Source: a virus | IMG/VR virus record: IMGVR_UViG_3300012000_000046 | Coordinates: 1-40,962 of that record | Strand: one strand, 5' to 3' | DNA length: 40,962 nucleotides | Part shown: positions 24,237-39,724 of the stretch, in pieces | Position numbering within the stretch: position 1 is the stretch's first letter | Layout: the number at the start of each line of letters is the position of its first letter | Translations under genes and position numbers: made by a program | Notes under the pieces: generated by a model | The model's input: the letters and a program-made list of their open reading frames with translations, nothing else | Databases searched by the model: none | What the model was told of the DNA's origin: nothing

Positions 24237-25781
24237 TCAGGTGGCAGCAGTCCGAAGAGCCACGATCGGCCCGGCCTTGACAGAGTCGCCGCAGTCGTGC
24301 GTAACGCAATCGAACCTCGTCGTGGCGACCATCAAAGTAGCGTCCTGTTCCAGGTAGCGGTCTTCGCTGGTCTTGATCGTCACGCCACGCCGAGTCGCGT
24401 AGATGCTCGACAGCGACAGGTCGCCGTAGAGCAACTTGACCACGCTGGGGTCGGCGTCGACCTTGCTCGACATGGTGTGAACGAAGACCACCGGCGAACC
24501 GAGCAGACGCAGTTCGGTCGGAGCCGCGAGGGTCGCAGCGGTGTTGCCACCGGAGAGGCCCACGTTGTTCACCAGACCGAGCCGCTGAACGCTCGCGGCG
24601 AACACGGCGGGATTCACGAACCATCGAGCATTGGCCCTCGCGTACAGCGGCAGCCGGCCCGCAGCGGCGATGAGGTCATCGACGTCGAGGGTCAGGGCCG
24701 AAGTGTTGCCCGTGGCGGCCGTCACGATGCTGGCGTTGTGGGTGCCGTCGGCAATCTTCGTGCAGACACCGATCATTCCGCCGTGATCGCCAATCCCCGT
24801 GCCAACAAACCCGACGGCGTCGACGAGTTCCGCGATGCTGCGGCTCACCTCGCCTGTCAGATAATCGGCAAGCCCAATGACAGAGTCTTCGAGCAACTCC
24901 GAAGAAATCCGATTGGCACAGGCCGCCTTCTTGCAGACCAACTGCACCCGATCCCAGGCCGCGTCGCTTTCTCCCACCTGAGTATTTTCCCCGACAAAAT
25001 AGGCCTGGAGGCCGCCAACCCGCCGAGGAATGATGAGGGTGTCCGACTTCATCTGGATGTTGCGGGCGTTGGCAGGAAAGGCACCGTACTGCTCGACCAG
25101 GACGATGATCTCGTTGAGAATCTCATCCTGCAAAAAGATGCCGCCCTTCGAGTTCACGCCCTCGACCTGAGCGCGAGCCTCGATGCCGTGGTCGGCACAC
25201 CAGCGGGCCGCGTTCTTGTCGCCGAGCAGCGTGGCCCGGTAATACTGACCGGCACGGTAGGCCCGCTCTTCGGCGTTCGGCCCACGGAAGTTCTTCAGCC
25301 GGCCAGCGCCGGGAAGGTTGTGGTAGATCGACACGGATCGGGTCTCCTTGGCAGAGGGACGGAAGCCCGCATCACCAGCGGGGGTGGACTTGTCGAGAAC
25401 GGCCCGAAGTTCGAGTTCCTTCGCGGCGACGCCCTCGTAAAACTTGATCTTGTCGCGGAGTTTCTCGGCGCGAGAGCAGAGGCAACGGAGTTTCTTCTCC
25501 TTGTCCTCGTCGGAAACCTCAGCGTCCTCAACCTCCTCGTCCTCGCCGACGGGGGACATCCGCTTCTTGGCCGAGGCCTCCTCGACCTCCTCCTCGTCCT
25601 CGTCGTCGCCGGCCGGGTAGTCCCCGCGAGCCTCTTCCTTCTCGTCCTCGGGCATCATCTCGCCGCTGCCCCTCTCGGCAACCATCTCCTCGTCCTGCAT
25701 GGCGCCCATCTCGGCCAACACGGCGGCGAGTTCGTCGAGCAGAGACTTGACCTTGGAGTTGGCTTCCATGTTGATTCGCAT
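24237..25781 (-). CDS. Major capsid protein, HK97 fold, with acidic delta (scaffold) domain
   Basis: The 514-residue protein has an N-terminal region of about 130 residues that is extremely acidic and helical (DEDEEEVEEAS, DEEVEDAEVSDEDKEKKLRCL), matching the delta domain that HK97-type capsids use in place of a separate scaffold and lose to the prohead protease. The shell domain follows: GGIFLQDEILNEII, NIQMKSDTLIIPRRVGG, an E-loop with FVGENTQVGESDAAWDRVQL, the spine-helix ELLEDSVIGLADYLTGEVSRSIAEL, and the P-domain/A-domain with VNPAVFAASVQRLG and LLGSPVVF. ATG 25781 is used; a second in-frame ATG lies four codons later. A terminator-like hairpin lies upstream, so it probably has its own promoter. 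Confidence 0.9.
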   Translation of the reverse strand: MRINMEANSKVKSLLDELAAVLAEMGAMQDEEMVAERGSGEMMPEDEKEEARGDYPAGDDEDEEEVEEASAKKRMSPVGEDEEVEDAEVSDEDKEKKLRCLCSRAEKLRDKIKFYEGVAAKELELRAVLDKSTPAGDAGFRPSAKETRSVSIYHNLPGAGRLKNFRGPNAEERAYRAGQYYRATLLGDKNAARWCADHGIEARAQVEGVNSKGGIFLQDEILNEIIVLVEQYGAFPANARNIQMKSDTLIIPRRVGGLQAYFVGENTQVGESDAAWDRVQLVCKKAACANRISSELLEDSVIGLADYLTGEVSRSIAELVDAVGFVGTGIGDHGGMIGVCTKIADGTHNASIVTAATGNTSALTLDVDDLIAAAGRLPLYARANARWFVNPAVFAASVQRLGLVNNVGLSGGNTAATLAAPTELRLLGSPVVFVHTMSSKVDADPSVVKLLYGDLSLSSIYATRRGVTIKTSEDRYLEQDATLMVATTRFDCVTHDCGDSVKAGPIVALRTAAT

Positions 25782-26081: not shown

Positions 26082-27950
26082 CTACGTTCTCCTGGGCTTG
26101 GGGAGGTTTCCGAGCAGGACTTCCCCGGCCTTCTGGGCCACCTTGGTCTTCTCGATCTCGATCCCAGTCGCCGCCTCGATGGCGGTTCCGGCGATCGCCG
26201 GCAACGTCGGAACAACGAACGCGGCGACCAGGGCTCCAGCGGCGTCCACGGCGAGCGTAGCGCCGGCCTTGACGAGCCTCGACAGCGTCGAGGTCGGCAC
26301 GGCGTTGACCACAATCTCGACGCTCTTGGGCGAGTTTTCCTCGGCGATTCGCTTGATTTTGTCGATCTCTCGCCGAGTCATGTCGCCCTTGCCCTTGGCG
26401 GGGCTGATCGTGACCTTCGACTTGGTCATCCGGACGCTGAAAGACTTGGAGCCGTCCTCGTCCTTGATCTGAATGGTCACGGCGTTCTTGCCGTCGGCCT
26501 CGGCGACGGACTTCGGGCTGCCGCCGAGTCCCTTGACGAGCGACGCGACCTTCTCGTCGCTACTGCCGATCTCCTTGATCGCCTTGCCGGCTCGCGTGGG
26601 TCGCATCCGGTTGTCGTAGAGCCCCTTGACCGCACCGACGGCCGCGCCTGTGGCCGCGCCGGCGGCGACTGCGGGAGGGAATCCGCCGGTCTTGCCGACC
26701 GCGCCGGCCGCGCCGATCACGGCTCCCTTGGCCGCACCGGCGGCGACGTCAGCCACTGCCTGCCCTGCGCAAGTGTTTCCCTTCTGGAACCCGCCGGAGC
26801 CGGTGCCGCAGTTGCGTCGCTCCGCCCTGGCGAAGCCCGGCCACGAATCGAGGTCGACGCCCAGGTGCGAGCGGCGAACGAAATCGATGAAGTCCAGGTA
26901 GTCTCGGCCTTCGCCTCGCTTCTTCGCGCGGCGGTGCTTGTCGAGGAAGTCGCGGAATCGCTTGTAGCCGAGCGAGTCTTTCTTGCTGAAGTCCAGTTTC
27001 ATGTCCATGCCGTCGCCGTTCTGCGACCACCACCGTTCCCCCGCCTTCGTCGAAAGAACCTGCTGGAGGGTCACCTCTCCGGAGGAGAGAACTCTCGATG
27101 CCTCACCGGGCGGCAAGAGTCCCTGGTCGCTCTTGCTGATGTCTTGCAAGAACTTGCCGAGAATCTCGCCTTCGACATTTCCGTCGAAGCCAAATCGGCC
27201 CCACAGCCGGTAGCCCGCGAAGATTGAATCGTTGGGGCTGCCAGCGGCGGAGGTCTTGGCGATCTTGATGCCAGCATCATCCGCAGCGGCGAGCGACTCC
27301 AGCATCTGACCAATCAAGGCCGCGCTGACTCGTCGCTCGGTTGGTGACATTCCCGCTCCGGACTGCGCCTTCTCTAGTCGAATCTGATCTCTGACCTTCT
27401 GGTCGACCTGGAAGTAGTCGTAGTAGACGTAGGGCTCCTGTCCCTCCAACTCTCTCAGCGACACTTCGGTGGTGGCTTGGCCGCCGCCGGTGCCTTCGAC
27501 AGGCGAATAGGAGTCAATCCGAACTCTGCGAAACCTCTTGTCGCCGTTGGAAGTCCACCTCACCGTATCGGTGGCTTCGATCGCGACATCGGAGCCCTTC
27601 GCGGTTGCGGCTCCGACAGTCAGGAGGTGATTGATTCCGCCGATGCCAAGATCGGACGCGATCGACCTTGCGAGTCCTGGGTTGTTGACATTCAGCGATG
27701 AGGCGCCGCCGGCTGGGCGATCCCAGGGCTCGCTGCCGCTAAAACTCGGAGGAAACCCCGTTCGCTCGTACGGAGCGTCGCTGCTGCTCTCTGCACCTGC
27801 GCCACCGCCGCCCGCGCAGTCGTTGCCGGGGCCGAATCGGCCGCCTCCTTGGCGGTCGTCGTCTCCGCAGTCCGAGAACGACAGAGTCAACTGCCGGTCG
27901 CGGGCCTCAACAAACGCCCGGAGGGATGCGATCCTGGACTCGACGCTCAT
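26082..27950 (-). CDS. 622-residue modular virion/morphogenesis protein
   Basis: No named family is recognised, but its modules recur in the two upstream genes. Residues 28-45 and 381-394 are two-cysteine motifs (C...GGRFGPGNDC and C...GGFQKGNTC). Residues 85-346 are a copy of the large repeated domain, with GYRLWGRFGFD at 246-256, GERWWSQNG at 304 and SLGYKRF at 326. After a Gly/Ala-rich hydrophobic stretch (400-443) comes a second shared module (462-550, SLVKGLGG start). The C-terminus has another Ala/Gly-rich hydrophobic helix (556-595). It starts by ATGA overlap with the protease-fusion stop. It may be an internal capsid protein; this is inference. Confidence 0.72.
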   Translation of the reverse strand: MSVESRIASLRAFVEARDRQLTLSFSDCGDDDRQGGGRFGPGNDCAGGGGAGAESSSDAPYERTGFPPSFSGSEPWDRPAGGASSLNVNNPGLARSIASDLGIGGINHLLTVGAATAKGSDVAIEATDTVRWTSNGDKRFRRVRIDSYSPVEGTGGGQATTEVSLRELEGQEPYVYYDYFQVDQKVRDQIRLEKAQSGAGMSPTERRVSAALIGQMLESLAAADDAGIKIAKTSAAGSPNDSIFAGYRLWGRFGFDGNVEGEILGKFLQDISKSDQGLLPPGEASRVLSSGEVTLQQVLSTKAGERWWSQNGDGMDMKLDFSKKDSLGYKRFRDFLDKHRRAKKRGEGRDYLDFIDFVRRSHLGVDLDSWPGFARAERRNCGTGSGGFQKGNTCAGQAVADVAAGAAKGAVIGAAGAVGKTGGFPPAVAAGAATGAAVGAVKGLYDNRMRPTRAGKAIKEIGSSDEKVASLVKGLGGSPKSVAEADGKNAVTIQIKDEDGSKSFSVRMTKSKVTISPAKGKGDMTRREIDKIKRIAEENSPKSVEIVVNAVPTSTLSRLVKAGATLAVDAAGALVAAFVVPTLPAIAGTAIEAATGIEIEKTKVAQKAGEVLLGNLPKPRRT

Positions 27951-30907
27951 CGTCTCGCTTCCAGGAAGGCGCGAAGTTCGGCGGCCGTCTCCGAGAGAGA
28001 CCGCTCGCCTCGCTTCTTCTTCTGGGCCTTGATCTCGTCTTCGGCCTGACGGTACGCGTCAGAGCCATCGCTGCCGGCCGGGAACTCGTACTTCTTCGTC
28101 TTCGTGCCGTCGGGATGCTGCCCCTGGACGTAGCCGCCCTTGCTGCTGTCGCCGACTTGCTTCGCCGTCCACGGGTAGGCGTCGCCCTTGCTCCAGGTCT
28201 GCACGCCTGAGCCGTCGTCAGACTTGCCGCCAGACTTGCCGCCGCGAGCCAGTTGATCCGTCCTCGCCTTGTCGACGAACTCCTGGGCTTTCTTGTCGTC
28301 GCCCTTCTTCCACTCCATGTAGGGAGGCTTCTTCTTGCCGTCGCCTGCAACCTTCGTGGGCTCGTCGCCGGTCTTTCTCGGCTTCCGTCCCAGAACGTCT
28401 TCGCCCGCTGCGGTCTTGCGGCCAAGAAAATCCTCGTCGTCGGAGGGCTTGGCCGTGTACTCGTCTCCAGACTTCTTCGCCTTCGGCGATGGAGCCGAGT
28501 AGTCAGTCGCTGCCTTGCCCTGGAAAGCCGACTTCTTCGGAGACGACGTCAAGCGATCGTAGTTGGACGGGCTCCTCTTGCCATCGCCCGCCGGCTTGTC
28601 GCTGCCAGTGCCTTCGTCTTCCTGGCACTTGTTGCCGGAGCCGAACCTGCCGTCCTCGCCACGGCCGCAGTCGCGACGCGACAGTTTAGGGGGGGAAGCA
28701 AGACTTCTTTTGCCGTCTGCGAAGTAACTGTCGAGCCTCTTCCTGGCCCATTGCATGAACTCCCTAGGGTCTCCGTTGAAGGTCACCAGACCGGAGTACA
28801 TTTCGTCCTTCGGGTTGCGGCCATTCTTTTTTGCGTATTCGCGGACTGCGGAGGCAAGCGTAGCCCCCTTGATATTTGCAGCGCGAAGCAGTGACCCAAT
28901 CCGTTTCGCTGTCTGATCGTCCTCCTTGTTTCCCCACCCGCCTGTCCTGCGGGGCGTGTACTGCTGACGAGTGCCGCCGAACAACTTCACCTTGTCATCG
29001 GGTGTCACTCTCTCCAGTGTTCCGCCGAACCGCTTGCTCTTCATAAACTCCGGCACGGATACGCCGGCGGCCTTTGCGGAAAGGGTGATGAATTGCGCGA
29101 CTTGGTCTGGGTCGTCAACATTGATCTTTGTCTTCGTGTTCGTTCCTGGGACCGTAACCTCTCGCGTGAGGTCGGGAAGGAACCCCCCGTGGTCGCCGCC
29201 GTCGTACGGAGCCCCAACAAATGGGTCGATGCGATCATCCCAAGTGCCAGCGGCCTCAAGCCTCTGCTGTTCGAGGGTCTTGACTGGTGGGCGCGAACCT
29301 CCGCCTCCAGAGATGTTTGAGCCGCCGTCGTCGGCGGCGCAGTTGTTGTTTGCGCCGAACCTTCCGCCGGCTTCTCGGCCGCAGTCTCGTCTCTCCGCGA
29401 GAAACGCCTCTGCTGTGATGCGAGCGCGAAGAACCTCGGCCCGCTTGGCGAGCGAGTCGAGCCGCTGCTTTCGCTTCTCGACGGCAGGCTTCTGCGGCTT
29501 GCCTGCGAACTGCTCGTAACTCCGCTTCGCGACCGACACGCTGGAATCGCTGTACGCCGGGTAGGTCACGGGGCCGCAATCCAGAATCGACTTCACCTTC
29601 GTGACGATTCGCCGCGACTGGCCGTTCTCGGTTGTCCACCGCTCGCCGCCCTCGGCCACGACGAAACTGAAACTTGAGCCCTTGAGGTCGCCGCGAGCGA
29701 TCAATTCTTCGAGATCACTGCGAGTCTCGGGGAGCAGGCACTCGTACCGCAGCCCCTTGTCGTCGACGACCATTCGCATCGTCGTCGGGAACCGGCCCAG
29801 GAGGTGATTCGGGTCGTGGTTGAAGAGACAGCGAGTCTCCAGCGGCTTGCCGTCGGCGTCCTGGCGGTTCGTCACGATCTCGAACGCGCCTGGGTCAATC
29901 TGCTCGACGAAATCCCCCAAGAGCAAACTATCACTGTGGAAGCGGGCCGCGTAGCCGACAATGTAGGTGCGAGGCTTCCCGGTCTCAGGGTCGGCCCGCT
30001 TCTCGATGCGAAGCAGTTCCGGGTCGAGCCGCTCCGTGCTGCTGAAGTTGCCGATGTATCGTCGCTCGACTCCAGGCTGGGCCAGGGGAGCCCGACGCTG
30101 CTCTTCGGTGCCGCTGCTGAAGTAGTCCTCGATCACTTTGCGTAACTCCTCGGCTAAGGGCTGTCGCTGCTCGTCACTCTCCAGACGCTGTAGGCACTCG
30201 TCCTTTGGGGTGTCGACGTGGACGTACTGCACCGGGACGTCGGACAACTGCGACTTCATGTCGTCGCTGACCTTGGTCGTGATGATCCAGGTCTTGTCGA
30301 CCTCCGGCTTCTGCATCGCCTTCTTCAGGATAAGGGTTCGGATGTCCAGACAATAAGAGACGAGATGACCGTTCGGCTGGTACATCGGCCGACCTGAGAC
30401 CGCTGCCATGATCGAGTCGTAGTCGAACACGACGTCGTTCTCGCCCAGGTGCTTGGCGACGTAGTCCTTCTTGCCGCTGCAAGGGGCTCCGTGGACGACG
30501 TAGACCTTCGGCCGGATGCCGTGCGTCGAGCCGTACGGCCGCAGGCCTCGCTCGCTCTTCTCGTCCGCCGCGTTCATCTGGGCGACGACCTTCTTGGCCC
30601 ACGACCAGCCCGCGTCGGAGCCCCACATAGCCCACGCAATTCGGGAGTTGGACGGGAAGCCGTCCTCGTCTGGGCTCCAACCAGGCGCGGACTTGTTCTT
30701 CTGGTGACGATCAAAGAACGCCTTCATGCGTCGCACTGTCGAGGGCGAGAGTTCGACGCCGTTTGCCAAGTCTCTGGCTCTCGCGATGCCGACGGCCGTG
30801 CCGCCTCGGCCGAACTCGCGCCGCCACGCGAGAGACTTCTCGGCCTCGTCGCGGGCTCCCTGTGGGGGCTTGAAGTCGATGTGAGCGTATTTCTCAGGCT
30901 TTGCCAT
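27947..30907 (-). CDS. Prohead protease fused to a P-loop kinase-like domain and modular tail
   Basis: In order (counted from an in-frame GTG at 30934): residues about 15-117, a domain with GTAVGIARARDLANG and AWAMWGSDAGWSWAKK found on phage head proteins; 140-255, a P-loop kinase-like domain (VVHGAPCSGKKDY, VVFDYDSIM, WIITTK, HVDTPKDECLQRL); 292-470, an HK97-type (U35) prohead protease with catalytic His in LFNHDP and Ser in GSSFSF. Then two cysteine motifs (518-532, 756-770), a middle domain (550-745) and a Lys/Gly-rich low-complexity end. The protease cuts the capsid delta domain and probably itself. The ATG at 30907 is preferred; GTG 30934 is possible. The three-domain fusion is unusual. 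The kinase substrate is unknown. Confidence 0.85.
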   Translation of the reverse strand: MAKPEKYAHIDFKPPQGARDEAEKSLAWRREFGRGGTAVGIARARDLANGVELSPSTVRRMKAFFDRHQKNKSAPGWSPDEDGFPSNSRIAWAMWGSDAGWSWAKKVVAQMNAADEKSERGLRPYGSTHGIRPKVYVVHGAPCSGKKDYVAKHLGENDVVFDYDSIMAAVSGRPMYQPNGHLVSYCLDIRTLILKKAMQKPEVDKTWIITTKVSDDMKSQLSDVPVQYVHVDTPKDECLQRLESDEQRQPLAEELRKVIEDYFSSGTEEQRRAPLAQPGVERRYIGNFSSTERLDPELLRIEKRADPETGKPRTYIVGYAARFHSDSLLLGDFVEQIDPGAFEIVTNRQDADGKPLETRCLFNHDPNHLLGRFPTTMRMVVDDKGLRYECLLPETRSDLEELIARGDLKGSSFSFVVAEGGERWTTENGQSRRIVTKVKSILDCGPVTYPAYSDSSVSVAKRSYEQFAGKPQKPAVEKRKQRLDSLAKRAEVLRARITAEAFLAERRDCGREAGGRFGANNNCAADDGGSNISGGGGSRPPVKTLEQQRLEAAGTWDDRIDPFVGAPYDGGDHGGFLPDLTREVTVPGTNTKTKINVDDPDQVAQFITLSAKAAGVSVPEFMKSKRFGGTLERVTPDDKVKLFGGTRQQYTPRRTGGWGNKEDDQTAKRIGSLLRAANIKGATLASAVREYAKKNGRNPKDEMYSGLVTFNGDPREFMQWARKRLDSYFADGKRSLASPPKLSRRDCGRGEDGRFGSGNKCQEDEGTGSDKPAGDGKRSPSNYDRLTSSPKKSAFQGKAATDYSAPSPKAKKSGDEYTAKPSDDEDFLGRKTAAGEDVLGRKPRKTGDEPTKVAGDGKKKPPYMEWKKGDDKKAQEFVDKARTDQLARGGKSGGKSDDGSGVQTWSKGDAYPWTAKQVGDSSKGGYVQGQHPDGTKTKKYEFPAGSDGSDAYRQAEDEIKAQKKKRGERSLSETAAELRAFLEARR

Positions 30908-33900
30908 CGTTGTACTCGTAGTCGTCCAGGTCACCCTCGTCCCACACCTCCTGCCACATTTCGTCGAGCCGGATCAAGTCTTCGGGCGAGAGCCAGTCGC
31001 TGCCGGTGCCGAGCGGCATCTCTCGGCGGCTCCGCATGAAGTGCTTGATGAACCGGTCGACAATCTTGTTCTGCGGGCTCGAACGGTCACCGATCCGCAG
31101 CGAGACGTCGATGTCCTCGCCGTTGTCGGCCCACCACTGCGTCCCCTCACGCGTGGAGTGAAGATCGAGCAGGCTCGTCGCGTGGGAGAGGCTCTCTGGG
31201 AGTTTGGCTCGGATGCGGTCTGGCAACTTGGCGTCGAAGCCCATGCGAGGCCAGATCGTGTAGCCACGGAAGCCGGAGGGCTCGCCGGCGTCGCCGGCGG
31301 CACTGAACTTGATCTCAGCGATCCCAGACTTGCGGGCGCTCTCGATGCTGGAGACCATCGTGCGGTAGAAGGCCCTGGCGGCAGCGTGACGCTTGGTGGC
31401 GTCACGCTCTACCTCTGGCATCACCTCGAACACGTTGTGGTACAGCACCTTCTCCTGCTTTCCGGTCTCCTCGTTCTTGCGGGAGCCAAGAACAGAGGAG
31501 CCGGACATTCCGCGACGAATGCCTGCGACATCCGCAGTGAAGTCCATGAAGATTGGCTTGGCGTCGCCGCCAGAGAACGTCTCGCTCGGGGAGAACTCGG
31601 GCGCCGTTCGCAGCGTGACCTCGGCCCGCTCCGGCGCACCGGTGGCGGCGATCGCCTCGCCGGGCTCCACGCCCATTGCGTCGAGCGACTCAGCGATCCT
31701 GGCTCCGCCGCTGGTGGACACGCTGCTGTACTTGCCCGCGCCGCTGAATGGCTCCGTGCCATCGGCCGGGAACCAACTCTTGTTCTCGTTCGTGGCAAGC
31801 AGCGTCGGCTTCTCAGTCTCGCTGCCGCCCTGCCCTGCCCCTTCCTGGCAGTCATTCTTCGGGCCGAACTTGCCGTCCTCCGTGCGACCGCAGTCGGAGG
31901 AGCGTCGCTCCTTCTTGAGTCGCTGCTTGGCGGACAGGCCAGCCCACTGCTTCGACGTCTCGTCGGGGCTGTTGACGACGTAGACCGGATAGTCACTGCC
32001 GGCGCCCCAGAGGCGATTGTCGATCGCCTTGGGCATGAACTCCTTGGCGACCGATTGGATTCGTGACACTTCCTGGGCCGGGACGGTCTCGGTCGTGTAG
32101 ATCGTGGCGCCGTAGTAGCCGATGTGGACGTAGTGAGTCTCGTTGTTTTCTCGATCTCGGACGAAGACGTTCACCCCTTCGTCGCCCCTAGTCGAGTCGA
32201 TCTCGACGAGCGTGTTGCTCACCTTGCCGCCCAGGCTGCGGACGAGCGACTTCAGGTTCTTCTCAGGAACCCGCATCTGATAGAGTTTGCGAGCCACCTT
32301 GGTCTGGGTCTTGTCAGACTTGCGTCGCACTCCCCGGAGCGACTCGCCCTTGCTGTTCGAGGGGCCTTCGCCCTTAGCGCAGGTGTTGCCGTCTCCGAAC
32401 ATCCCGCCGTCTTGGCGGCCGCAGTCGGCGGAGCGAATCTCGACCCCGTAGTCGAGCGCGGCGAAGTTGCGACGCTCCTCGACGTCGTCTTCGAGCAGCC
32501 GGAGGACTTCGAGGAGGTCGATGCCCAGGTCGGCGAAGTTCGACTCCCAGGCCGACTGCTCGGCATCAAACGGATTGACGTCGAAGTCGTCGTCGCCAAA
32601 GTCCTCGGGCTGCTCCAGGTAGTCTCGCCGCGACGCTGGCGTAAACGGCTTGTCTCGCTTGATCTTGCCGCTGGTGACGCCGTCTGCCGCAGCCGAGAAC
32701 AGGCTGTTCTCGGTGATGTTCGTCTTCGCGCCCATGTGCTTCCAGAGCCGCTTCTCGTACTGCCACAGCGCGGCTTGAATCTCGTCGATGTCCGCTTCCC
32801 GGCCGCTCCGTGACTTGATCTCCTCCTGCACCCTTCGGAAGACCTCGCGGATGTTGCGGCGAGCCGTTGCCGTCTTGGGGTCTTGCTGCTCTAGGATCAA
32901 TGCCTTGAATATCGAGTTGCCGGCGTTGTGAAGATCGTGAATGTCTGGGTCTTCGTGCTTGCCGTAGCCACCACCGGATGGTCGCTTGACCTTGCCCATC
33001 GACCGCTCGGCGGCCGTCGCCCAAATGAAAGCGGCGCCGTTCTCTTCGATGACGCCGGTGCGGGCCTGAATCTTGAGGGATCGAATCAGAGCGGCCTTGG
33101 TGATGCCGTGAGTCTTGTCGACTCCGAAGAGTTTGCTCTTGCTCCAGTTGCCCTTTTCAAGGGCTGCCAGTGCGACCTTCGCGCGATCCTGGGCGCCATC
33201 GGCCTTGAGTCGCGTGACCAGTTCGCCTGACACCCGGCCGACAGATCGCATGAGCCATCTGTCCATCGTCAGGAAGTCGTGGCGACCAGACAGGTTCGCG
33301 TTGAACGATCCGATCTTCGGGCCGAAGATAGCGGCGACCGGAACGATCTCGTCCTTCAGTTCACCAGACACCATCTCCTTCCGCTTACCTTTGCTGTCGA
33401 CCGGCACAGCCCAGGGCGATGCACCGGCCCTCGCTCTCCACTCGTCGAGGGCAGACTTGCCAGCAAGCCTCTCGAACGTCTTCTCGATCTTTCCAGCCGT
33501 GGTGTAGCCGGAAAGCAGCCTGCGAGTGCGGTCTTTGCCGAATGAGTCGAGCAGTCCCTGGAAGACCTTCAGCGACGCCGTGACGTCTCTCGCGCCGCCG
33601 CCGTAGTTTGTCGGGACGACGGTTCCGTGTTCACGGAACATTCGATACAGGTCGTCGGCGTCGCGGAGGTTTGCATCCGGGCCTTGGCCTGTAGACGTGA
33701 TGGCGAGCAGGGTTGTGAAGATGAACTTGGCGTTCTCGTCGTCAGCAAACTCGGGCCAACGGGAAGTCATCTGCCGCATCGTGTCCTGGAGATCGCTGCT
33801 GTAGAAGCCTGGGTCGACTCCGAGAACGTCGTACGCGTGAATCGCGTCCTCGGTCAGCGAGTCAACGAGATACTTCATCTGGGCCTCGGGAATCTCGGAG

Positions 33901-36488
33901 GCCGATGTGTCGATAATCGCGGCCGGGCCTTCCGCGCCGGTCTTGCGTCGCTCTTCTTCGTGCCTGTTCGACAGGTACTGGCCGACCGATTCGTGGGCGA
34001 CGAACTGTCCGTTCTGGCGGAGATCGCTTTCCGGAAAGACTGGGTCAGTGGACGTGATCTTGTTCTTCTGCTTGCCCTCTCCCCGTTGAACAAACTCACG
34101 GCCCCAGAGGTCCGTCGTCGATCCGGCGGCGCTGCCAGTTCTCCCTGGATTCGCCTTGAAGTCGGCAATCGCGCGGTCGCGTGCCTCCTTGTCAATCACG
34201 GCGACTCGCTTCCCCCCGGCGAACATCACGTCGACATCTCGGCTGTTGGCCTTGGCGGCCTCCTGGGCGACCGACGGGCCGCCCTGGCCGGATTCTTCCT
34301 GGCAGTCGTTGCCTGGGCCGAACTCGCCCGACTCGTTGCGATCAGACTCGGTGCAGTCGCCCCGCCGCTCGATGGCCTTTGACAGACCTCCAAGCAGACC
34401 GAGCAACGACATCGACCTCCGGCTCACCTCCTCGATCAGCCAGCCCAGGAGGCTTCGGCCTTCTGCGACGTTTCGCTCCTTGAGTCTGGGCAGAATCTTC
34501 TTGAGTTTCGCGAACCGCTTGTACCCCAGGGACTTCTTGTCCTTGAGGTCGAGAGTCATGTCTGTTCCGCTTCCGTTCTCGTCCCACCACTTCTTGCCTT
34601 CTCGGGTCGAGATCAACTGCTGGAGCGTGTAGCCCTTCTTCGTGAGTCTCTCTGCAACCCGAGCAGCGGACTGTGCGGAAGGTGGAACGGCCATCTTGAA
34701 CGAGGCCAAGATGATCTCGGGCGGAACCCGAAACTCGGACAGGTCTAACTTCGTGTCGAACCCGAACTGCGGCCACAGCCGGTAGCCCGAATAGATCGGG
34801 TCGTCTTTCATGCCGGCGGCATACGTCGTCGCCTTCACTGCCTTGGCCTTCTCGGCCGCCATGAGCGACTCGATCATTCGCTCCTGCATGAGGCTCGCGA
34901 TTCGGAGGCGAGTCTTGTCACTTGTGCCGGCTTCGAGTTTCTCGGCATCAGAGACGCTGCTTGGCGTGTTGAGTCCTCCATAGTTGACTTCCAGGCCGTC
35001 GCCGTAGTTGGCGATGTCGACCTGAGTCACCACGCTGCCACTGTCTTCTTCGTTCGGGTCGACCGGCGACGTGATAATGACGCTTACGGCGTCATAGAAC
35101 GCACTGACTCTGACATCGGCGCCGCGAATGGCGCCGCCGCCGATCTTGACGGCCGTGTCGAGGTCTTTGACGCCGAACCTGTCGAGGGCTGCTGCGACCC
35201 TCTTTGGCTTGCTGATCGCCAGTTCGTGAAGCCGCTCGCCGCCGATGACGGGTGAGTTCTCGGCGAGGCCCTTCGAGTCCAGTAAGATGCTCTCCTCCTC
35301 GGACTTCCGCCACGACTCCCGCTTGGCTCGCGATGGTGGACGAGCCGTCGCTGCGGCTCCGCCCTTGCCGCCCTCCTGGCAGTCGTTCTTCGGGCCGAAT
35401 CGCCCGCCCTCGACGCGGCCGCAGTCGGCGTCTCTCGCCTCGATCTCGTCGATCGGATACCAGGAGCGGCCTTCGTTCCGCTTCTTGAGCGAGGGCAGTT
35501 TCTTCTGCTCCTGCTGGAACCGCTTGTATCCCAGCGAGTTCTTGTCGCTGAGGCTGAGGGACATCTCCATCGAACTGCCGTTCTCAGTCCACCAGTTCTC
35601 GCCGTCGCGGAACTGCATCAGTTGCTGGATCGTCACGCCCTTCACTTGCTGGCGGAGGTTCTTGATGACGACCGCTCGCGGAATCCGGCCCGTCCCCTGC
35701 GAAGGAATCTCCACGCCGACGGCGCGGAGCAGAACCTCGTCTGGAATCTTCGCCATCAAGTCTCGGGGAACTTTGGCGTCGAAGCCGAACTGCGGCCACA
35801 GCCGGTAGCCCTTGACGTACGGGTCTCTCTTGCTGCCGACCGCCATCGCGACTGCCTTGCCGATGCCAGACTTGTCGGCTTCGATCAGCGACTCCAGCAT
35901 CCGCTGCTTGAGAATGCTGGCGACACGGAGGCCGCTGGTGCCGGTTGCGTTCGCGATCCGGACGTCCGAGTGGAAGTCCGAGTAGTCGACAACGACCTCG
36001 CCTTCGCCGAATCCCTCCATGATCATCACGCGGGTGGTGGCGAACTTTCCTGACTCGCCAGACGGATCGATCGGAGATGTCATCGTCACGGTCAACGCCT
36101 CATCGTCAGCGTCGCTGACCGCGATTCGCGAACCGCGAACAGCGCCTCCGCCGATCGTGACCACAGAATCGAGGTCGGCCATGCCCAGCCGCTTCATTGT
36201 GGCGGCAACCGCCTTGGGCTGCGCGATCGTCAGGGACTCGATCTTCGATCCGCCCGAGATGGGCGACGAGCCTTTCATCTGCTCGCCAGTCAGCGAGACG
36301 CTGCTGCTGCTCTGCTTCCAGGAATCATCGCGAGGAGCGGGTGGCAGGGCTCCGCCTTTGCCGTCGTCCTGGCAGTCGTTCTTCGGAGCGAACGTGCCAT
36401 TCGACTCGCGGAGGCACCCGGACGCGCGGGTTTCGGCGACAAGCGATGCGTAGCCCCTGGTCTCGATCTGCTCGGGGCGAAAAATCAC
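30894..36488 (-). CDS. 1,864-residue modular protein with repeated domains
   Basis: Five two-cysteine motifs (residues 25-39, 356-370, 712-729, 1356-1370, 1533-1547) split it into sections. Sections 78-343 and 415-680 are clear duplicates (GGGA.RG, QRM.ESL, GYRLWPQFGFD, WW.ENG, SLGYKRF); 1590-1812 is a diverged third copy (GYTIWPRMGFDAKLP, QWWADNG). Helices around 190-240 look like the core of an acetyltransferase (GNAT) fold, but no activity is claimed. The middle (about 775-1255) resembles a large domain of phage polyvalent proteins (HDFLTMDRWLMRSVGR, ALWQYEKRLWKHMGA). Residues 1406-1505 match a module of the 622-residue protein. Placed between portal and protease genes, it is probably packaged in the head. 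It overlaps the portal stop (ATGA). Confidence 0.72.
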   Translation of the reverse strand: MIFRPEQIETRGYASLVAETRASGCLRESNGTFAPKNDCQDDGKGGALPPAPRDDSWKQSSSSVSLTGEQMKGSSPISGGSKIESLTIAQPKAVAATMKRLGMADLDSVVTIGGGAVRGSRIAVSDADDEALTVTMTSPIDPSGESGKFATTRVMIMEGFGEGEVVVDYSDFHSDVRIANATGTSGLRVASILKQRMLESLIEADKSGIGKAVAMAVGSKRDPYVKGYRLWPQFGFDAKVPRDLMAKIPDEVLLRAVGVEIPSQGTGRIPRAVVIKNLRQQVKGVTIQQLMQFRDGENWWTENGSSMEMSLSLSDKNSLGYKRFQQEQKKLPSLKKRNEGRSWYPIDEIEARDADCGRVEGGRFGPKNDCQEGGKGGAAATARPPSRAKRESWRKSEEESILLDSKGLAENSPVIGGERLHELAISKPKRVAAALDRFGVKDLDTAVKIGGGAIRGADVRVSAFYDAVSVIITSPVDPNEEDSGSVVTQVDIANYGDGLEVNYGGLNTPSSVSDAEKLEAGTSDKTRLRIASLMQERMIESLMAAEKAKAVKATTYAAGMKDDPIYSGYRLWPQFGFDTKLDLSEFRVPPEIILASFKMAVPPSAQSAARVAERLTKKGYTLQQLISTREGKKWWDENGSGTDMTLDLKDKKSLGYKRFAKLKKILPRLKERNVAEGRSLLGWLIEEVSRRSMSLLGLLGGLSKAIERRGDCTESDRNESGEFGPGNDCQEESGQGGPSVAQEAAKANSRDVDVMFAGGKRVAVIDKEARDRAIADFKANPGRTGSAAGSTTDLWGREFVQRGEGKQKNKITSTDPVFPESDLRQNGQFVAHESVGQYLSNRHEEERRKTGAEGPAAIIDTSASEIPEAQMKYLVDSLTEDAIHAYDVLGVDPGFYSSDLQDTMRQMTSRWPEFADDENAKFIFTTLLAITSTGQGPDANLRDADDLYRMFREHGTVVPTNYGGGARDVTASLKVFQGLLDSFGKDRTRRLLSGYTTAGKIEKTFERLAGKSALDEWRARAGASPWAVPVDSKGKRKEMVSGELKDEIVPVAAIFGPKIGSFNANLSGRHDFLTMDRWLMRSVGRVSGELVTRLKADGAQDRAKVALAALEKGNWSKSKLFGVDKTHGITKAALIRSLKIQARTGVIEENGAAFIWATAAERSMGKVKRPSGGGYGKHEDPDIHDLHNAGNSIFKALILEQQDPKTATARRNIREVFRRVQEEIKSRSGREADIDEIQAALWQYEKRLWKHMGAKTNITENSLFSAAADGVTSGKIKRDKPFTPASRRDYLEQPEDFGDDDFDVNPFDAEQSAWESNFADLGIDLLEVLRLLEDDVEERRNFAALDYGVEIRSADCGRQDGGMFGDGNTCAKGEGPSNSKGESLRGVRRKSDKTQTKVARKLYQMRVPEKNLKSLVRSLGGKVSNTLVEIDSTRGDEGVNVFVRDRENNETHYVHIGYYGATIYTTETVPAQEVSRIQSVAKEFMPKAIDNRLWGAGSDYPVYVVNSPDETSKQWAGLSAKQRLKKERRSSDCGRTEDGKFGPKNDCQEGAGQGGSETEKPTLLATNENKSWFPADGTEPFSGAGKYSSVSTSGGARIAESLDAMGVEPGEAIAATGAPERAEVTLRTAPEFSPSETFSGGDAKPIFMDFTADVAGIRRGMSGSSVLGSRKNEETGKQEKVLYHNVFEVMPEVERDATKRHAAARAFYRTMVSSIESARKSGIAEIKFSAAGDAGEPSGFRGYTIWPRMGFDAKLPDRIRAKLPESLSHATSLLDLHSTREGTQWWADNGEDIDVSLRIGDRSSPQNKIVDRFIKHFMRSRREMPLGTGSDWLSPEDLIRLDEMWQEVWDEGDLDDYEYNDGKA

Positions 36489-39400
36489 GGAATCACCTCG
36501 TTTCCGGCTACCTCCCTGGCGAGCGACAAGATGTCGTCTCCGTACAACTGGCCTGCCATGATGCCGGCCAGCACTTCGGCCACCAACTCGCGTCGCCCCT
36601 GGCCGGCGAGCGTCGACACCTCCCGCTCGGCGAGCGATCGCTGCTCGGCCGTCAGCGGCTCGCTCTCGCAGGACTCGTACGACGCCGGGTTCGCCGACGC
36701 GTGAATCCGGTGGGCGGCCTCATGGAGGTAGGGGTTCACCTGAGAGGCGAACCCGACAGGCATCTCGGGCGGCGTGTCCGGCGAGACGAGCAGGACATCG
36801 GCCGCGTGATCGTAGACCGCGACCGCAGGGCCGATGTCGCGAACCTCGACGCGAGGCATCTTGCTGCCCATCGCGCGAGATGCGATGGAGATCAGGCTGT
36901 CTCTTGCTTGCCGTGCAACCAGGGCATTGCCTCGGGGCCGTCCTCGTACCAAGCGGGATCGAGTTTCTCCCCCTTGGCCTCGACGACCCTCTCGAAGTAC
37001 GCCCTCATCGCGCGGAACATCTCCAGCGGCCCCTTGCCGGATGCCGGGATGTCGAATCGCTGAACCTTCTGGTCGGCTTCCATCTGATCTGCTCTCCTTC
37101 GGCATTCCATCATACGCACGAACTGTCTTTTTTCCATGCTTCGCCAACTCGCCTGCGTGGTCTTCGTCCTGTAGGTCGGTCGAGTCGCCCTCGTAGACTT
37201 GTTTCACAGTCGAGTCTTTGCGAGCCCTGGCGAATCCGGCATCCCAGTCGGCCGGCTTGCGATCGTCGTCTGGCTCGTACTTGACCCAAGTCTCCTTGAA
37301 AGTCTTGAGGTTGAAGACCGCCAACTGGCCCGCCTTTCGGCCTGCCTCCAGAGCCTTGTCGGCATCCGAATCGTCGAACCTAGTTGCAATGTCAATGTAG
37401 AAGTCGTCCCCTGTCTTCCAGCCGCCGATGAATCTCGACGGGTCTGATCCGATGACGTCGCTGTTGTTTGCCAGCCATTGGCCGAGTTGGGCGGCCGCCG
37501 ACGGAGACTTTATTTCCCCCGCCCTGATCTTCACAGACCTCCTTGAGTCATTGGCGAACTCGGAAACCATGACCCCATCAGACGGCTGCTCGGCAGACAG
37601 CGGATCGAGAGTGAATCCGTCTGGAGACTGCGAGATTTTTTCAAGCAGTTTCTGCACGTCAACCGGCGAGACCGAAGGAGGCTTCGGGGCGCCGGCGAAA
37701 GCCGTCGCGGCTGCTTCGCCCGGTGACGAAGACTTCTCGCGGGAGTCGTCAGGCGAAGCGTCGCCGCTGCCCTGCCCGGCACCTTCCTGGCACTGATTTT
37801 TTGGCCCGAACAAGCCTCCCTTCTGCCGCCCGCAGTCGTCGCGGGTCTCGGGCTCATTCTCCCGCTGCTCCGGAATCGAGAGCCGCTCCTCGGGGATGAT
37901 CCACAGTTTGCAGATCGCGTCGGGGCGGATCGAGCCCTTGACGATCTCGCAAGAGCCGCCCTCTTCGTAGTAGACGCAGTTGCGACACAGGATGCCCCGC
38001 GACGCGAACGGGTTTCGCTCCTGGTAGTGCGAGTCCGCCTGCGACCAGCGGCCCTTGTCCTGGACGATCTCCTCCTGGGCGTCGTAGAGCGCCTGGTTCT
38101 GGGGCGAGAGCCTCCGCTGCTCGACGGCCTCGGCCTTCTTCGCTGGCTGAAGTTCGGCCGCCTTGACTGCAAACTCTTCGCCGCTCTTGGGATCGACGAC
38201 GAGAGCCACGGGCTCGCCCGGCTGCACCTCCACCTTCTCGCCACTCTTGAGGTCGAGAGTGCCTTGATCCATGACGTGCTTGAGTTCGCCGATCTTGCCG
38301 TCGCCCCAGGTGACGATGTCTCCCTCGGCAAACTGCGGCCCTGGCTTCTTCTCGGACGGGTTGCCCTTCGGAGCCTCGGGCGGCGCGTGGCCGTCCTTGA
38401 CTCCGGGCAGACTCGGCTTGGAGCCGGGCATCTCGGGTGGCGGGCCGCCGGCAGCCGCGCCCATCATCGCTGCCATCGGGTCTTGCTGCTGCGGCCCCTT
38501 CACGGCCTGCTCCAGCGGAATCATGTTCATGGCGACGAAGTGCTTGTCTCCATGCTCGATCGGCGGCAGGCCTTCGTCCTTGCGGCTGTCGTTGATCGAG
38601 TAGATGCCCAGGTTCTGCATGGTCGAGTAGAAGCCCGCGCGGCTGTTGCCGTCCGCCCGCATCAGGGCCTTCGCGTCGAACTGGGCGAAGAACACGTCGT
38701 CGTTGTAGATCAGCGATCGACTGATTCCGCCCTCGATCCGACTCAGCCACGGAACCAGCGTGTAGGTGACGAACTCTCGTCCGCTCGACTCCATGTTGCC
38801 GCTGCTCTGGCCTTGCACAAGCGACAGAGGCAACCGGTAGACTCGCGCGATCTCCTCGGACTGAAAGCGGCGTGTTGACTCGAACTGGCTCTGCTCGGCG
38901 TTGTAGCCGATCTGCTCGACGCGGAGCCCGTTGGTGAGGATCGCGGTTCGGTGAGCGCGGTCGCTGCCGCGATGCAATCTCTCCCAGTTGTCCCGCAGCC
39001 GCTCGGCGGCCTCGGGCGAGAGCGAACTCTCGGTCTGAAGAACCACGCCTGGGCGGGCCGAGTTCGCCCAGTATTTCGACGCGTGAATCTCGCAGGCCCT
39101 GGCGAGGGCGATCGCCTCGCGGGCCACCTCGATCGGCACCATGCCCTTGATGCCATCGGGCTCCGCCGTCCAGCGGATGTGCATGATCTGATCCTGCGTG
39201 TACCGCTCCATGCGTCCCGTCTCGGGATTCGTGTAGGTGTACCGCAGTCGCCCGTTCTCCAGACGCTCGACGTCCATCCGCGAGGGGTGAAGGTTGTCGA
39301 GAGCCGACACCGCTCCGTAGCGGCCCGACCGAATCAGGCTGTACGAGTTGCCCCAGAGCGTCAGGTTCATCACCATCTGCTCGAAGAACTCGAACTTTGT

Positions 39401-39724
39401 CTGCCACTCGTTCGGCGCGAACGACAAGACCTTGTGCAGCGGGATGTCCGACGCGACCTCGGCTCCGCCGCCGGGCTTCCGCCGCATCACGCTGATCGGA
39501 AGACTTGAGATCGTTTCCGCCAAAATCCGGCAGCAAGCCAGCACCACCGTCGATGCCAGGGCCGTGTCAGGAGTGATGCGAATCTCGGCCGCCGTGCGAG
39601 ACCGACCCAGGAACATCTCGTCCGAGAGTAGGAAGTTGTTCCAGGCGACGCTGCGAATCTCGGGCGTCTCGGCCCCACGTTCCGGTGTCCAGACAATGTC
39701 GGACAGAACCCGCTCCTCGCTCAT
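36485..39724 (-). CDS. Portal protein fused to C-terminal domains
   Basis: Residues 1-410 are an HK97-type portal (TALASTVVLACCRILAETISSLP, LLNHLP-like DNLHPSRMDVERL, YTQDQIMHIRW, FQSEEIARVYRLPLSLVQ). A Pro-rich linker follows. Residues 464-525 form a small beta domain (FAEGDIVTWGDGKIGELKHV). Residues 580-606 have four Cys (CRNC, C, C-K-L-W) like a high-potential iron-sulfur or zinc fold common in phage head proteins. The two-cysteine motif is at 631-645. Residues 755-815 match a phage domain with FIGGWKTGDDFYIDIATR. Residues 1001-1005 are HEAAH with a later Glu in ELVAEVLAG, a zinc-metalloprotease pattern. Residues about 866-943 look out of frame. The start overlaps the terminase stop (ATGA). 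Confidence 0.85.
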   Translation of the reverse strand: MSEERVLSDIVWTPERGAETPEIRSVAWNNFLLSDEMFLGRSRTAAEIRITPDTALASTVVLACCRILAETISSLPISVMRRKPGGGAEVASDIPLHKVLSFAPNEWQTKFEFFEQMVMNLTLWGNSYSLIRSGRYGAVSALDNLHPSRMDVERLENGRLRYTYTNPETGRMERYTQDQIMHIRWTAEPDGIKGMVPIEVAREAIALARACEIHASKYWANSARPGVVLQTESSLSPEAAERLRDNWERLHRGSDRAHRTAILTNGLRVEQIGYNAEQSQFESTRRFQSEEIARVYRLPLSLVQGQSSGNMESSGREFVTYTLVPWLSRIEGGISRSLIYNDDVFFAQFDAKALMRADGNSRAGFYSTMQNLGIYSINDSRKDEGLPPIEHGDKHFVAMNMIPLEQAVKGPQQQDPMAAMMGAAAGGPPPEMPGSKPSLPGVKDGHAPPEAPKGNPSEKKPGPQFAEGDIVTWGDGKIGELKHVMDQGTLDLKSGEKVEVQPGEPVALVVDPKSGEEFAVKAAELQPAKKAEAVEQRRLSPQNQALYDAQEEIVQDKGRWSQADSHYQERNPFASRGILCRNCVYYEEGGSCEIVKGSIRPDAICKLWIIPEERLSIPEQRENEPETRDDCGRQKGGLFGPKNQCQEGAGQGSGDASPDDSREKSSSPGEAAATAFAGAPKPPSVSPVDVQKLLEKISQSPDGFTLDPLSAEQPSDGVMVSEFANDSRRSVKIRAGEIKSPSAAAQLGQWLANNSDVIGSDPSRFIGGWKTGDDFYIDIATRFDDSDADKALEAGRKAGQLAVFNLKTFKETWVKYEPDDDRKPADWDAGFARARKDSTVKQVYEGDSTDLQDEDHAGELAKHGKKTVRAYDGMPKESRSDGSRPEGSAIRHPGIRQGAAGDVPRDEGVLREGRRGQGGETRSRLVRGRPRGNALVARQARDSLISIASRAMGSKMPRVEVRDIGPAVAVYDHAADVLLVSPDTPPEMPVGFASQVNPYLHEAAHRIHASANPASYESCESEPLTAEQRSLAEREVSTLAGQGRRELVAEVLAGIMAGQLYGDDILSLAREVAGNEVIP
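36892..37081 (-). CDS. Nested or displaced small gene within the portal fusion
   Basis: In the frame one base offset from the portal gene, a natural-looking 62-residue protein (MEADQKVQRFDIPASGKG...AWYEDGPEAMPWLHG) ends at TGA 36892-36894. Over the same stretch the portal frame is Arg/Gly/Pro-rich and shadow-like. ATG 37081 has AAGGAG ten bases upstream. Either this is a separate gene overprinted on a linker, or the portal frame is disrupted here by indels, possibly near the six-A run at 37128-37133. The family is unknown. Confidence 0.5.

Follow-up and report, generated by a model that had tools for sequence, protein, structure and literature searches.

Four consecutive head proteins encoded by the window (the whole 40,962-nucleotide stretch analyzed here, an IMG/VR virus record, IMGVR_UViG_3300012000_000046) carry ten copies of a short two-cysteine motif, hereafter the tag, that sits at the joints between their domains. 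Its place in head genes ahead of effector-like domains, and a leader that differs with the class of the phage protease, suggest a leader-type label for virion cargo: tagged proteins would be loaded into the prohead and cut beside the tag, and the modules thus released would be injected. We give this reading about an even chance.

Ten copies of the tag in four consecutive head proteins

The head genes of the window encode an HK97-type portal, an S78 protease, a PF05065 capsid protein and a terminase. A six-frame scan of both strands with the pattern C-x(3-12)-G-x-[FWY]-x3-N-x-C returned ten in-frame copies within 26769-37834, all on the minus strand (as are all window open reading frames (ORFs), tags and domains given below), in four consecutive ORFs of the head region: i) the 1,079-residue portal (36485-39724) has one copy, CGRQKGGLFGPKNQC (37790..37834; residues 631-645), with the leader PETRDD; ii) a 1,864-residue protein (p1864; 30894-36488) has five, namely CLRESNGTFAPKNDC (tag 1, 36372..36416, 25 residues from the N-terminus), CGRVEGGRFGPKNDC (tag 2, 35379..35423), CTESDRNESGEFGPGNDC (tag 3, 34302..34355), CGRQDGGMFGDGNTC (tag 4, 32379..32423) and CGRTEDGKFGPKNDC (tag 5, 31848..31892); iii) the S78 prohead protease fusion (27947-30934) has two, CGREAGGRFGANNNC (tag 1, 29339..29383, ~40 residues past the protease domain) and CGRGEDGRFGSGNKC (tag 2, 28625..28669); and iv) a 622-residue protein (p622; 26082-27950) has two, CGDDDRQGGGRFGPGNDC (tag 1, 27816..27869) and CGTGSGGFQKGNTC (tag 2, 26769..26810), the latter being the form commonest in other phages. 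The copy numbers and the range in a preliminary description of this DNA were exact, and residue shuffles of the four proteins yielded 0.0003 matches per set. The spacing proposed there, C-x(7-12)-G-x-F, matched only 2 of the 10 copies and had to be corrected: the first gap is 4-8 residues and the actual consensus is C-x(4-8)-G-x-F-x3-N-x-C.

Among the window copies, the same residue was encoded by a different codon in 70 of 187 comparisons, so the protein sequence is conserved rather than the DNA. Read directly in the sequence, most copies are preceded by a charged or basic stretch and followed by a low-complexity linker rich in Gly, Ser, Asp or Glu, as previously noted. The preliminary description had named no family for the motif, and no above-threshold model in Pfam, NCBIfam or PHROG covers the tag, the best PHROG match being sub-threshold (E 0.15) and to a family of unknown function. 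In the AlphaFold model of p622 (18 sequences; mean predicted local distance difference test (pLDDT) score 65), both tags lie in linkers of pLDDT about 30-39 that flank folded domains. The tag is not a domain but a short linear motif that lies in linkers predicted to be disordered.

Carriers, polarity and confinement to the head module

Among 59 non-redundant carriers, Pfam detected the head domains Phage_portal (7), Phage_portal_2 (7), Portal_Mu (2), MuF (5), S78 (4) and XkdF (1), and the effector domains ART-PolyVal (8), ADPrib_exo_Tox (5), Zeta toxin (3), PARP (2) and 2H ligase (1); PHROG annotation agreed. The tag is found in portals of three Pfam families, and the domains adjoining it are ADP-ribosyltransferase (ART), Zeta-toxin, 2H and GNAT-like; its passengers are often toxin-like. 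Moreover, 14 of 15 ART-PolyVal domains begin in frame 5-170 residues after a tag, 12 of them within 50 residues. Contig G410 (locus L065) encodes three ARTs, each 18-20 residues past a tag, while a 1,762-residue protein of locus L112 (7278-12563, plus strand) combines four tags with ART-PolyVal in four stretches and a terminal ADP-ribosyltransferase exoenzyme domain. Tandem ART modules and chains of portal, ARTs and ParB-like domains were seen in the L112, L063 and L065 contigs.

For confinement, a 35-tag profile was run over 48 whole records, in 35 of which a portal was detected. All of the 103 copies listed from these 35 records lay on the strand of the portal, and 102 of them were 0-15 kilobases (kb) downstream of the portal domain, where an even spread would have put 23. 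Furthermore, in closed ORFs more than 40 residues (median 236) followed the last tag in 107 of 108 cases, 27 of 98 first tags were within 40 residues of the first Met, and neighboring tags were at least 122 residues apart. This polarity, together with the domain-sized spacing, suggests that the tag leads a cargo-sized domain.

Spread among viruses and cells

At least 119 IMG/VR stretches match a degenerate pattern for GGFxxGNTC[AG], against a rough estimate of about five chance matches for so large a collection, and 118 of those listed are in frame in ORFs; matches to earlier degenerate DNA patterns were mostly out of frame. A stricter pattern is carried by 102 of the listed viral loci and has a single match in about 85,000 prokaryote species genomes, in a prophage portal of Singulisphaera acidiphila; a looser one has one match in 392 Planctomycetota genomes. 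That portal (strain DSM 18658; L160:2179-4986) bears the tag, has a long linker of KPNAST repeats and ends in a nuclease-like domain. No match to the bare tag was obtained by tblastn against isolate phages, perhaps owing to low-complexity filtering, and no in-frame cysteine tag in a plausible gene was found in a hand-picked sample of cultured relatives of the carriers.

The tag leader differs with protease class

Of 77 distinct copies from S78 loci, 67 have an R-[S/A/D/R/N/G] pair among the six residues that precede the first cysteine, versus 12 of 90 elsewhere (Fisher 6e-23, an optimistic value since the genomes are related; 25/28 versus 8/58 by locus). Thus the leader differs with protease class. 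Leaders are also more alike within a genome than between genomes (permutation p 0.0002), and the eight residues downstream of the tag show no such likeness (p 0.26).

Among the same S78 phages the linker of the capsid protein varies in both length and sequence except for an invariant KE[TSAG]RSV, of which more distant capsid proteins retain E-x-R. In the window this element is KETRSV (25332..25349, minus strand), a candidate maturation site resembling the tag leaders; in one phage, L149, KESRSV in the capsid protein is paralleled by KESRSA before a tag.

The cysteine pair and a cysteine-free counterpart

A search for the core of the tag that did not require cysteines returned 221 matches with both cysteines and four with one. 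Of these four, two are on the L114 contig, one is in L034 and the last is a chance match whose frame is unrelated. Seven further matches, mostly parts of other domains, had neither. Moreover, all cysteines of p1864 (ten) and p622 (four) are motif cysteines. The pair is thus kept as a unit. Besides its one-cysteine tags, the L114 contig (IMGVR_UViG_3300049043_000103) has broken portal and ART frames, which suggests a decaying prophage. A zinc ribbon or metal knuckle was rejected as an identity for the tag: it needs four ligands per unit, whereas the tag has two cysteines and copies are at least 122 residues apart.

In the uncultured relative MW202897, the prohead protease has two cysteine-free copies, NPNHDERGRFSSGD and NPNHDENGRFASGD, and the pattern RDxxGRFxxGGGG matched 95 viral stretches. 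Pfam on 53 cysteine-free carriers found portal families, MuF, S78, XkdF and DUF2213 on the head side, and ADP-ribosyltransferase, Zeta, NUDIX, inorganic pyrophosphatase, 2H and the anti-CBASS protein Acb1 among the others; more than 40 residues follow the tag in 73 of 74 cases, beginning with a Gly-rich linker. The RDxxGRFxxGGGG tag therefore resembles the cysteine tag in protein classes and polarity but lacks the cysteines. In a profile comparison only the GxFxxG core aligned (8 columns, probability 3.5%), so we call the cysteine-free tag analogous, not homologous. A search of open-access text on this form returned nothing relevant. Short or stand-alone proteins starting MARxYKRDKNGRFAGGGGGG (L182, L189, L195, L200, L207 and others) consist of an N-terminal cysteine-free tag, a glycine linker and a cargo-sized domain.

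The pairing bears on a different explanation, in which the tag forms a two-cysteine hairpin with a structural role, holding modules apart or together, e.g., so that they survive passage through portal and tail, and no protease takes part; the cysteines might form a disulfide after release into an oxidizing compartment, or copies might share a metal. That the cysteines are nearly always paired (221/225), and that p1864 and p622 have none outside the motif, is what such a hairpin would predict. However, AlphaFold shows no ordered element at the tags (pLDDT about 30-39), the protein classes that carry the tag also carry the cysteine-free counterpart, and a passive knob leaves the variation of the leader with protease class unexplained; we therefore consider the hairpin unlikely. 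The disulfide or metal knob suggested in the preliminary description is weakened by the cysteine-free counterparts, which are found in the very classes of protein that bear the tag, and by the lack of a folded knob in the model, although the strict pairing leaves room for a disulfide or metal role.

Modules behind the tags

Whole units of tag plus domain are gained and lost between tags: i) the protease gene of the relatives L032, L034 and L037 has a single tag and cleanly lacks the module (28670..29338 in the window) that separates the two window tags; ii) the L035 homologue of p622 has a third tag plus an extra module. One copy in L034 lacks its second cysteine. Single-linkage clustering chained most modules into one cluster and was not used.

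A domain of ~300 residues marked by GYRLWPxFGFD and WWxxNG (domain A) stands behind tags 1, 2 and 5 of p1864 (35439..36371, 34374..35378 and 30954..31811) and behind tag 1 of p622 (26856..27755), where it is folded in the model (pLDDT mostly 80-94). Foldseek against PDB returned weak matches only (best E 5.6e-3), with the acetyltransferases CBP/p300 first and several GNATs among the others, so domain A is a GNAT-like candidate and not an assignment; against viral models it matched a head-morphogenesis protein (E 5.7e-8). Domain B of p1864 (32742..34223; AlphaFold mean pLDDT 50) is homologous to part of the giant virion proteins (2,800-3,200 residues) of the podoviruses MW202640 and MW202722 and of Limnohabitans phage DC33, which are encoded between a lysozyme/peptidase-bearing virion protein and a tail fiber gene. 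Phage DC33 (L040; PQ492659.1) is filed as Inoviridae, a taxonomy line that looks wrong, as its 39-kb gene order matches that of MW202640-type tailed podoviruses. Domain C of p622 (26304..26600; model pLDDT about 60-78) is resembled, by eye, by the module between tags 4 and 5 of p1864 (31944..32321). That tags mark domain boundaries, as first proposed, is upheld by the recurrence of domain A behind several tags, by the linkers of the p622 model and by the presence or absence of whole modules in relatives.

Could the tag be chiefly a landing site for modular shuffling, i.e., repeats that promote recombination and are kept for swapping effector cassettes? The gain and loss of modules between relatives and the recurrence of domain A behind different tags fit this idea. 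However, the 70/187 codon differences point to conservation of protein rather than DNA, and recombination needs neither strict cysteine pairing nor one-way polarity, which makes shuffling as the main role decidedly doubtful. In favor of an intein-like self-processing site or a host-protease site in place of a phage maturation-protease site, one might cite the conserved Asn near the Cys at the motif end and the range of settings of the tag, which include three or more portal families and more than one type of protease. Such a site is very improbable, since searches of the tagged proteins found neither a Hint/intein domain nor another self-cleaving fold, an intein needs Asn directly before Cys, Ser or Thr where the motif has N-x-C, and the leaders track the phage protease class.

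A possible loading and release tag

The interior of the prohead is where portal crowns, MuF proteins and maturation proteases are found. The tag is of leader type, lies on the joint between such proteins and effector domains, and occurs only in head genes, so a loading and release tag is the reading that fits best. Each tag would open a module made of a disordered linker plus a folded effector-like domain, placed behind a portal, MuF or maturation-protease domain, within a polyprotein, or N-terminally in a free-standing protein. Tagged proteins would be built into or recruited to the prohead, where the maturation protease would cleave within the leader, next to the tag; the probable site in S78 phages is after the Arg of E-x-R, ahead of Ser, Ala or Asp. 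The modules would be freed inside the capsid and enter the host together with the DNA. The cysteine pair may stabilize the recognized turn through a local disulfide or metal contact.

Two proposals of the preliminary description are thereby supported in part. A packaging tag or protease cut site is favored by the confinement to the head module, the place ahead of cargo and the protease-class leader, while packaging and cleavage themselves we infer; shared delivery to the capsid interior agrees with the tagged parts sitting in classes expected to face the capsid lumen.

Several points weigh against loading and release: i) the identities of domains A and C are mostly weak; ii) it takes inspection by eye to make the match between leader and capsid-protein linker convincing, and this holds for S78 phages alone; iii) an own-versus-other test of tag leaders against the capsid-protein linker in 18 phages was not significant (p 0.26; an earlier version, p 0.06, compared a region lacking the stretch of interest for the window clade), so it is the S78 group that supports reading the leader as a protease site; iv) the tag also occurs in phages with no detectable S78 protease, so different proteases must act if cleavage is the function; v) the within-genome likeness of leaders could partly reflect paralogy, and related genomes are not independent.

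A broader proposal, which we put forward tentatively as a possibility, is that joint tags with and without cysteines form one class, a general cargo label of tailed phages: whatever domain stands behind it would be loaded into the capsid, freed by the phage's own maturation protease, of whichever type, and delivered with the DNA, portals and proteases doubling as carriers of effector chains. To our knowledge, the choice of effectors for transport in the head is understood in few model phages. A cargo tag would make loading and release predictable in a way that can be tested. With a tag shared by three or more portal families, sequence searches alone could pick out injected effectors, many of which are unannotated. 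Such a tag could also serve to load chosen proteins into laboratory phage capsids, and on this view many oversized genes called "portal", "protease" or "MuF" would be effector-polyprotein carriers.

Other features of the window proteins

The portal domain (PF04860, HK97 type) lies at 38573..39547. Just upstream of the portal tag is a four-cysteine cluster, CRNCVYYEEGGSCEIVKGSIRPDAICKLW (37910-37987, minus strand), that resembles a small metal or iron-sulfur site. At the end of the portal ORF (36485-37100, minus strand) the conserved portal C-terminus, RFDIPASGKGPLEMFRAM...QETA*, sits in another frame, after which the ORF enters a zincin-like domain with HEAAH (36710-36724); in the relative L034 (1-620) the portal and zincin-like parts are two overlapping ORFs. 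The frame break may be an assembly indel, a fusion or a programmed frameshift. The N-terminal part of the S78 fusion (30104-30910, minus strand) comprises a PHROG 2859 domain, then a P-loop region like a kinase or terminase small subunit that matches PHROG 4581 and the ATPase PHROG 2071, and is followed by the protease domain (PF04586, Peptidase_S78; 29507..29980). The only suggestive effector-type elements in the window are domain A (GNAT-like, weak), domain B and the zincin-type HEAAH.

Comparison with known systems

The propeptides of head proteins that are processed by the prohead proteases T4 gp21 and SPN3US gp245 are short sequences ahead of head-packed proteins and are cut beside a short consensus (PMC10052503); gp245 cuts after A-x-E with Ser favored at P1' and processes portal and ejection proteins, and a T4-type capsid-targeting sequence can direct proteins into the prohead core (PMC10052503). 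Like these sequences, the tag precedes cargo (107/108 last tags; 27/98 first tags N-terminal) and lies in head genes, judged by gene position alone (102/103 copies). The likeness described here is one of arrangement. The known propeptides are N-terminal and one per protein, whereas a single polypeptide can have up to ~5 two-cysteine tags, which also stand at module joints inside the chain and after portal or protease domains.

Polyvalent proteins (Iyer et al. 2017, PMC5512222) are effector chains with ART, GNAT, 2H, zincin and ParB-like domains, encoded near or fused to portal or MuF; they are predicted to be packaged and injected, and release by a peptidase has been proposed (PMC5512222). Several effector-type domains per polypeptide are likewise found in the tag carriers L112, L063 and L065. 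The text of PMC5512222 mentions no cysteine motif or linker tag; the tagged proteins, unlike the polyvalent proteins described there, have a conserved tag on the joints themselves.

In MuF polymorphic toxins (Jamet et al. 2017, PMC5576092), a head protein encoded downstream of the portal is fused to a variable C-terminal toxin domain, and no joint motif is reported in the text of PMC5576092. The MuF domain is present in 5 of the 59 tag carriers, and MuF (PF04233) was not found in the window proteins. Unlike in MuF toxins, portals and proteases also bear cargo behind the same tag.

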